Program-made: the position numbers and the translations under genes
In this document: piece by piece, positions 48,870 through 49,992 of the stretch
How positions within the stretch are numbered: the stretch's first letter is position 1
Layout: each line of letters starts with the position of its first letter
The notes under the pieces: model-generated
What the model saw: only the letters and a program-made list of their open reading frames with translations
What the model was told of the DNA's origin: nothing
The model's database searches: none
Source of the DNA: an uncultured Chthonomonas sp.
GTDB lineage: Bacteria; Armatimonadota; Chthonomonadetes; Chthonomonadales; CAJBBX01
Length of the DNA stretch: 64,000 bases
NCBI GenBank assembly: GCA_903951425.1
Contig: CAJBBX010000174.1
Span: forward strand, 24,642-88,641
Direction: 5' to 3'

Positions 48870-48885
48870 GCGCCGAACGTACTGA

Positions 48886-48917
48886 GGGCCGGCCCACCAG
48901 TTGGCGGACCGGCCCCC
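48886..48917 (+). terminator. GC-rich hairpin after lipoprotein gene
   Basis: GGGCCGGCCC pairs with GGACCGGCCC across a short loop (one internal mismatch), 16 bp after the stop. No U-run follows, so it is either a weak or a factor-assisted terminator. Confidence 0.5.
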
Positions 48918-49125
48918 TGAAGAACGGCGAAGGGTGGCCGTTCATGACCCGTAGGCTAAAACGGCTAGCCCCCCGCGTCCCTCCGTTGACTATGATCCAT
49001 GCCTAGTCACCACCCCCTTTCCTAGTCTGATCACATTATCGCGTGGCGACCACGGACTGTCAAGCGGTTCGGCGAGGTTTTTGCCCGGTTGTTTGGCGAT
49101 TTGCGCACCAAGCGGCTCATTGGCC

Positions 49126-49154
49126 TTGACACCTGCTCGCTCTTGCCCTACACT
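49126..49154 (+). promoter_or_regulatory. Consensus-like sigma-70 promoter of the sigma-factor gene
   Basis: TTGACA at 49126-49131, 17-bp spacer, TACACT at 49149-49154. The -35 is perfect and the -10 matches four of six. The predicted transcription start (about 49161) rules out the track start at 49154 and supports ATG 49217. Confidence 0.75.
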
Positions 49155-49216: not shown

Positions 49217-49894
49217 ATGGGACTTGGCTACGTAGATCGCTCCTCTCATTTTGCCGGCATGAGCGACGAAGACATAGTGACCATGGCCCAGCGCGGGTGC
49301 GCCAGCGCTGCCGAGTACATGGTTATCCGGTACCGCAATCTCGTGGAGAGCAAAGGGCGCACGTACTTCCTGCCCGGCGCCGACCACGACGATGTGGTCC
49401 AGGAAGGCATGATCGGCCTCTACAAGGCCATCCGTGACTTCCGGGGCGACCGGTTCGTCCGATTTCGGGCGTTTGCGGATGTCTGCGTCACCCGCCAGAT
49501 CATCACCGCCATCAAGGCCGCCGGTCGCCTGAAGCACAGCCCACTGAATAACTACATCTCGTTCAGCCAGTCCTCGCCCGAGGCTGACGCCGAGATTGAC
49601 CTGCTTGATCGCATCCCCGATGACCGCGCCAAGGACCCTTCGTGCTGCATTGACGAGCCGCGCGACGCTCGTGCGGTCTGCACGGCCATGGGCGGCGCCC
49701 TCTCGGATCTGGAGTCCGCCGTGCTGGGGTACTATCTGGAGGGTTGGTCGTACCGGGAGATCTCGCGCTCGCTGCAATGTGGCACCAAGTCGATTGACAA
49801 TGCCCTGCAGCGGATCAAGCGCAAGGTCGGTGCTGCACTGGACGGATGCGACGAACCGGGTGCGCCCCTCCATGCGTTCGCGGCGCCTCAGTAG
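49217..49894 (+). CDS. sigH: SigH-type RNA polymerase sigma factor
   Basis: A 225-residue sigma-70-family factor closest to Bacillus SigH (sigma-30). Region 2 reads MSDEDIVTMAQRGCASAAEYMVIRYRNLVESKGRTYFL. The core-binding and -10 recognition blocks are DDVVQEGMIGLYKAIRDF and FRAFADVCVTRQIITAIKAAGRLKHSPLNNY, almost word-for-word the SigH signature. Region 4 is a helix-turn-helix (LESAVLGYYLEGWSYREISRSLQCGTKSIDNALQRIKRK). It directs RNA polymerase to alternative promoters; in Firmicutes these govern entry to stationary phase and sporulation. No sporulation genes are in the window. Start 49217 has GGGGG seven bases upstream and lies downstream of a consensus promoter. Its last ten bases overlap tRNA-Thr. 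The symbol is assigned by similarity. Confidence 0.85.
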   Translation: MGLGYVDRSSHFAGMSDEDIVTMAQRGCASAAEYMVIRYRNLVESKGRTYFLPGADHDDVVQEGMIGLYKAIRDFRGDRFVRFRAFADVCVTRQIITAIKAAGRLKHSPLNNYISFSQSSPEADAEIDLLDRIPDDRAKDPSCCIDEPRDARAVCTAMGGALSDLESAVLGYYLEGWSYREISRSLQCGTKSIDNALQRIKRKVGAALDGCDEPGAPLHAFAAPQ

Positions 49895-49957
49895 CTCAGC
49901 TGGCAGAGCAACGCTCTTGTAAAGCGAAGGTCAGCGGTTCGAATCCGCTCTGAGGCC
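49885..49957 (+). tRNA. tRNA-Thr (anticodon TGT)
   Basis: A 73-base cloverleaf folds cleanly. The acceptor is GCCTCAG/CTGAGGC, then U8-A9, D-arm GCTC...GAGC, anticodon loop CTTGTAA (anticodon TGT, reading ACA), a 5-base variable loop, and T-arm AGCGG-TTCGAAT-CCGCT. The outermost anticodon-stem pair is A-A and the discriminator is C, both slightly unusual; CCA is not encoded. The first ten bases are also the last codons and stop of the sigma-factor gene. No separate promoter is obvious, so it may be processed from the sigma-factor mRNA. Confidence 0.9.
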
Positions 49958-49992
49958 CTCTAACTTCAGCCACATGCCCCACGATCCGGCCC

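Follow-up and report, generated by a model that had tools for sequence, protein, structure and literature searches.

A SigH-family sigma factor gene in the DNA analysed here, a 64,000-nt window from a 6.1-Mb Armatimonadota genome, runs on the same strand into the gene for tRNA-Thr(UGU) and takes its stop codon from the tRNA. We give a probability of about 0.75 to the reading that the pair is an old two-gene operon with a tolerated overlap of neutral origin, whose two products would be exclusive for each RNA molecule, rather than a dedicated regulatory device. This reading starts from what can be observed of the overlap geometry, its conservation, the promoter pattern, the coding constraint on the sigma tail and the tmRNA gene of the genome, and proposes from these a co-transcription, an RNase P cut, tagging and an order of evolutionary events. 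The overlap is known from the sequences of only three genomes.

The sigma gene (sigH) occupies positions 49217 to 49894 of the forward strand and encodes 225 aa, with an alternative start in the same frame at the ATG at 49259. Its product scored 234.2 bits against the NCBIfam SigH profile NF006148 (cut-off 208) and exceeded the Pfam cut-offs for sigma-70 regions 2 and 4 (PF04542, PF08281); the cut-off of TIGR02859 was not reached. Judged by these profile matches, the ORF is a genuine SigH-family sigma factor gene. L002 (G000:C116:24114-24707) holds another SigH-like sigma gene, which shares 47% identity with that of the window; no tRNA adjoins it there, and it has orthologue-like matches in many relatives.

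Both ARAGORN and Rfam place the start of the tRNA-Thr(UGU) at 49885 on the forward strand (Rfam 49885-49957, 66.4 bits), and the acceptor strands, GCCTCAG and CTGAGGC, form 7 of 7 pairs. The sigma frame ends CAT GCG TTC GCG GCG CCT CAG TAG, so that U8-A9-G10 of the tRNA serve as the stop codon (49892-49894), just as the sequence-only reading had placed it. The shared segment is 10 nt long (49885 to 49894, forward strand), and the RNase P cut predicted from the tRNA 5' end falls at 49884/49885. The protein frame has its stop within a same-strand gene recognised as a tRNA by model score and pairing, the single tRNA-Thr(UGU) found in the assembly. This tRNA has C73 as its discriminator and no encoded CCA (window 49951-49960); the other two tRNA-Thr of the genome have U73 with CCA encoded. 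The sole tRNA with anticodon UAA found in the genome (L094:1000-1073; G000:C63, minus strand) is 74 nt long and lacks the extended variable arm that tRNA-Leu usually has.

The C-terminal tail of sigH, the 20 codons that follow KRKVG (49832 to 49891, forward strand), does appear to evolve as coding sequence. Comparison of three species gave synonymous to nonsynonymous codon differences of 7:1, 5:0 and 4:1 in the tail, a small sample of 20 codons from only three genomes, and of 38:3, 46:5 and 31:4 in the sigH core. Substitutions in the tail are thus mostly synonymous, and 7 of its 9 variable columns fall at third positions (P 0.008). A tail that evolves in this way suggests that the frame is in use up to the tRNA.

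Relatives, of which the named ones bear the labels Chthonomonas sp. or Armatimonadetes, point to an old adjacency and a young overlap. We found sigH followed by tRNA-Thr(UGU) in 21 Armatimonadota genomes, and also, 43 nt apart, in one MAG labelled Actinobacteria. The genes overlap in all of the genus members compared (3/3). Seven more members of the family retain the pair, with the tRNA starting 6-40 nt past the sigH stop, and in eleven further Armatimonadota the gap is 0-101 nt; among these 18 genomes from outside the genus, gaps of 0-3 nt occur in four and an overlap in none. Comparison of the junction among relatives, proposed in the sequence-only reading as a check on whether the overlap is kept, thus shows it kept within the genus and absent from the other family members and the wider phylum. 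That reading had also taken relatives with the tRNA clear of the sigma stop as evidence against itself, and such relatives are what is seen outside the genus, with gaps of 0-101 nt. From these gene orders and gaps we conclude that the overlap is a derived state at the level of the genus. A wider gene order can also be traced. At 11 loci sigH is followed on its own strand by Tyr-Thr(GGU)-tuf, and nine of these also have Thr(UGU) first, and the complete order sigH - Thr(UGU) - Tyr - Thr(GGU) - tuf is seen in distant relatives. In the window genome Tyr - Thr(GGU) - tuf is kept on another contig, and the window itself retains only sigH - Thr(UGU), which on this comparative evidence is a remnant of the old order. 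Two relatives (L025 and L138) keep sigH, tRNA-Tyr, tRNA-Thr(GGU) and tuf, but in the interval from sigH to tRNA-Tyr we detected no tRNA-Thr(UGU).

The distance from the conserved KRK motif of the sigma factor to the tRNA indicates how the overlap may have arisen. Computed for the family, this distance is 59 nt in the window and 43-74 nt in the seven other members, whereas the sigma tail after KRK is 22 aa here and 9-14 aa in the rest of the family. As the distance is within the family range and the tail is longer, the tRNA did not move and the spacer did not shrink; it was the frame that lengthened. The simplest history is that the sigH stop was lost and that translation read through the spacer to the UAG built into the tRNA, with this order of events being the one we infer. 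UAG occupies nt 8-10 in 24 of the 43 distinct tRNAs of this genome, and the probability that 12 spacer codons are open by chance is about 0.71 at the local G+C content, so a frame that loses its stop close ahead of a tRNA and is in the right register will often end there. A stop at nt 8-10 is therefore unremarkable once a frame has entered the tRNA; what is special is that a real gene enters it. Among 44 tRNAs of the genome, collected by Rfam search and fetching of regions, sigH is the only convincing gene that runs into a tRNA 5' end. Other frames of at least 60 aa enter the 5' ends of tRNA-Asn, tRNA-Arg(UCG) and tRNA-Thr(GGU) at nt 8, and those of tRNA-Val(UAC) and tRNA-Glu(UUC) deeper; judged by eye from their translations they look spurious, open frames of the kind expected of a G+C-rich genome.

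Co-transcription of sigH and tRNA-Thr(UGU) is the best inference from the promoter pattern. The sequence-only reading had described a consensus promoter upstream of the sigma gene, and it is present as a sigma-70-type element (TTGACA-17-TACACT, 49126 to 49154, forward strand) with 10 of 12 matches; both hexamers are conserved in three congeners and the bases immediately upstream diverge. We likewise agree that the tRNA has no obvious promoter of its own. The best -10-like hexamer found in a search before tRNA-Thr(UGU) matched at 2/6 positions, no better than shuffled sequence, in a scan that is blind to non-sigma-70 promoters inside sigH. A -10 hexamer with at least 5/6 matches precedes 24 of the 35 solo or first-in-cluster tRNAs of the genome, mostly 8-13 nt upstream, and about ten others in this class are likewise without a clear -10. 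Given the conserved promoter before sigH and no -10 before the tRNA, the sigH promoter likely drives the tRNA as well, and the tRNA is then likely released by RNase P from a transcript that it shares with sigH.

In our preferred reading, sigH and tRNA-Thr(UGU) would be transcribed as an old operon from the promoter before sigH. In the ancestor of the genus the sigH frame would have lost its stop in a short spacer, and it now extends to the UAG at nt 8-10 of the tRNA. One transcript would then serve both as a message translated to the edge of the tRNA and as a tRNA precursor. A ribosome at the end of sigH would keep the 5' acceptor strand of the tRNA open, and during termination at nt 8-10 it would mask the acceptor strand and the D arm. 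Conversely, a folded tRNA would be cut by RNase P at 49884/49885, leaving an mRNA that ends ...CAU GCG UUC GCG GC, two bases into an Ala codon and lacking a stop. Pairing of the leader with the trailer was considered as a block to RNase P; the predicted folds retain the acceptor stem, although the full cloverleaf is not recovered by minimum-energy folding. Were RNase P to cut the shared RNA, a nonstop sigma mRNA would result, and such an mRNA would be subject to tagging and removal by trans-translation. The genome has a tmRNA gene (tag ANTNQYALAA), and tagging and removal are therefore the predicted fate of the nonstop product. The competition, nonstop and tagging steps follow established RNase P and tmRNA biology. 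Sigma protein and mature tRNA would thus compete for each RNA molecule, and a single RNA is probably unable to supply an intact message as well as a mature tRNA.

Three alternatives were weighed. A recent rearrangement might have brought the tRNA beside sigH, the overlap being a product of the junction. The old partners Tyr, Thr and tuf are indeed gone from downstream of the tRNA, where a convergent HemW-like gene is found instead, but the presence of the pair in so many Armatimonadota and in the MAG labelled Actinobacteria, together with a KRK-to-tRNA distance that is unchanged in the family, leaves this idea largely refuted and hardly credible. Independent expression of the tRNA from a weak or unusual promoter inside sigH, such that RNase P seldom cuts the sigma mRNA, is unlikely. 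It draws some support from a TATAAT in the spacer before tRNA-Thr(UGU) in three relatives with longer gaps (L010, gap 40; L022, gap 98; L145, gap 71), but there is no -10-like hexamer within 25 nt of the tRNA in any of the three overlapping species, the best again being at the level of shuffled sequence.

The remaining alternative is that the overlap is regulatory and selected, with maturation of tRNA-Thr by RNase P limiting SigH through a nonstop mRNA and a tagged, degraded sigma factor. The overlap and a coding tail are kept in three species, a shared promoter is likely, the tmRNA tag ends in ALAA and a parallel proposal exists for selB/selC (PMC8124441). Against this, the rest of the family and phylum is without the overlap, the stop at nt 8-10 is a generic stop of bacterial tRNAs, and relatives with a gap of 0-7 nt keep the operon without a nonstop consequence. 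Codon usage also speaks against it. ACA is absent from sigH and accounts for 7 of the 163 Thr codons in six neighbouring ORFs, so that demand on tRNA-Thr(UGU) is probably low. We consider a selected overlap of this kind quite improbable, and we give as little credence to a maintained switch in which folding and RNase P processing of the tRNA truncate the sigma mRNA, SigH would come just from those RNAs that give up their tRNA, and sigma output is tied to tRNA maturation via trans-translation. The earlier suggestion that the overlap ties sigma output to tRNA demand finds no specific support in an overlap limited to one genus and a codon that is rare. The simpler reading is that the overlap is passive and is cleared by ribosome rescue.

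Our literature searches for other bacterial mRNA-tRNA overlaps found only the selB/selC case. In Alphaproteobacteria, Dyella/Luteibacter and Nitrospirae, tRNA-Sec is nested in or overlaps selB, and tRNA processing has been proposed to give a nonstop selB mRNA (Mukai 2021, PMC8124441). As in sigH/tRNA-Thr(UGU), the protein frame enters a tRNA of the same strand, RNase P would produce a nonstop mRNA, protein and tRNA are proposed as alternative products, and the overlap is lost in some close relatives. However, the selC tRNA is nested whole or the selB stop is at nt 46-48, whereas here only nt 1-10 overlap and the stop is at nt 8-10; and selB and selC act in one pathway, whereas no functional connection is apparent between a sigma factor and an ordinary elongator tRNA. 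The sigH/tRNA-Thr(UGU) pair is a new gene pair of the selB/selC kind, with a shorter overlap. Overlaps of tRNA and protein genes also occur in animal mitochondria (cited in PMC8124441), where a tRNA is similarly processed from a coding transcript and a nonstop mRNA is possible, but with different processing machinery and in compact genomes, unlike the 6.1-Mb bacterial genome here. The E. coli thrU-tyrU-glyT-thrT-tufB operon shares the order Thr(UGU) - Tyr - Thr(GGU) upstream of tuf; it has no sigH in front, whereas the window has sigH and Thr(UGU) only, with Tyr-Thr-tuf on another contig. The pair offers a clean natural case in which an intact mRNA and a mature elongator tRNA, here a single-copy one, would not both be obtainable from one bacterial RNA, and if RNase P cuts, it would be a natural, genome-encoded substrate of trans-translation. 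It also illustrates how a gene that has lost its stop can be rescued by a tRNA beside it, many tRNAs having a built-in UAG.

Upstream of sigH, on the minus strand, we noted a candidate structured small RNA (window 48880-49063) with its own promoter (TTGACA-17-GATAAT, 11/12) and no match to an Rfam family. Identity across the block is 97-98% in congeners and 79-85% in six other family genomes, where the match lies on a contig other than that of sigH. A hairpin closes the 3' end of the candidate RNA, and two-sided changes occur in 7 of its 43 predicted pairs. It also contains a short frame that opens with ATG, is about 11 codons long and is preceded by a GGAGG-like sequence.
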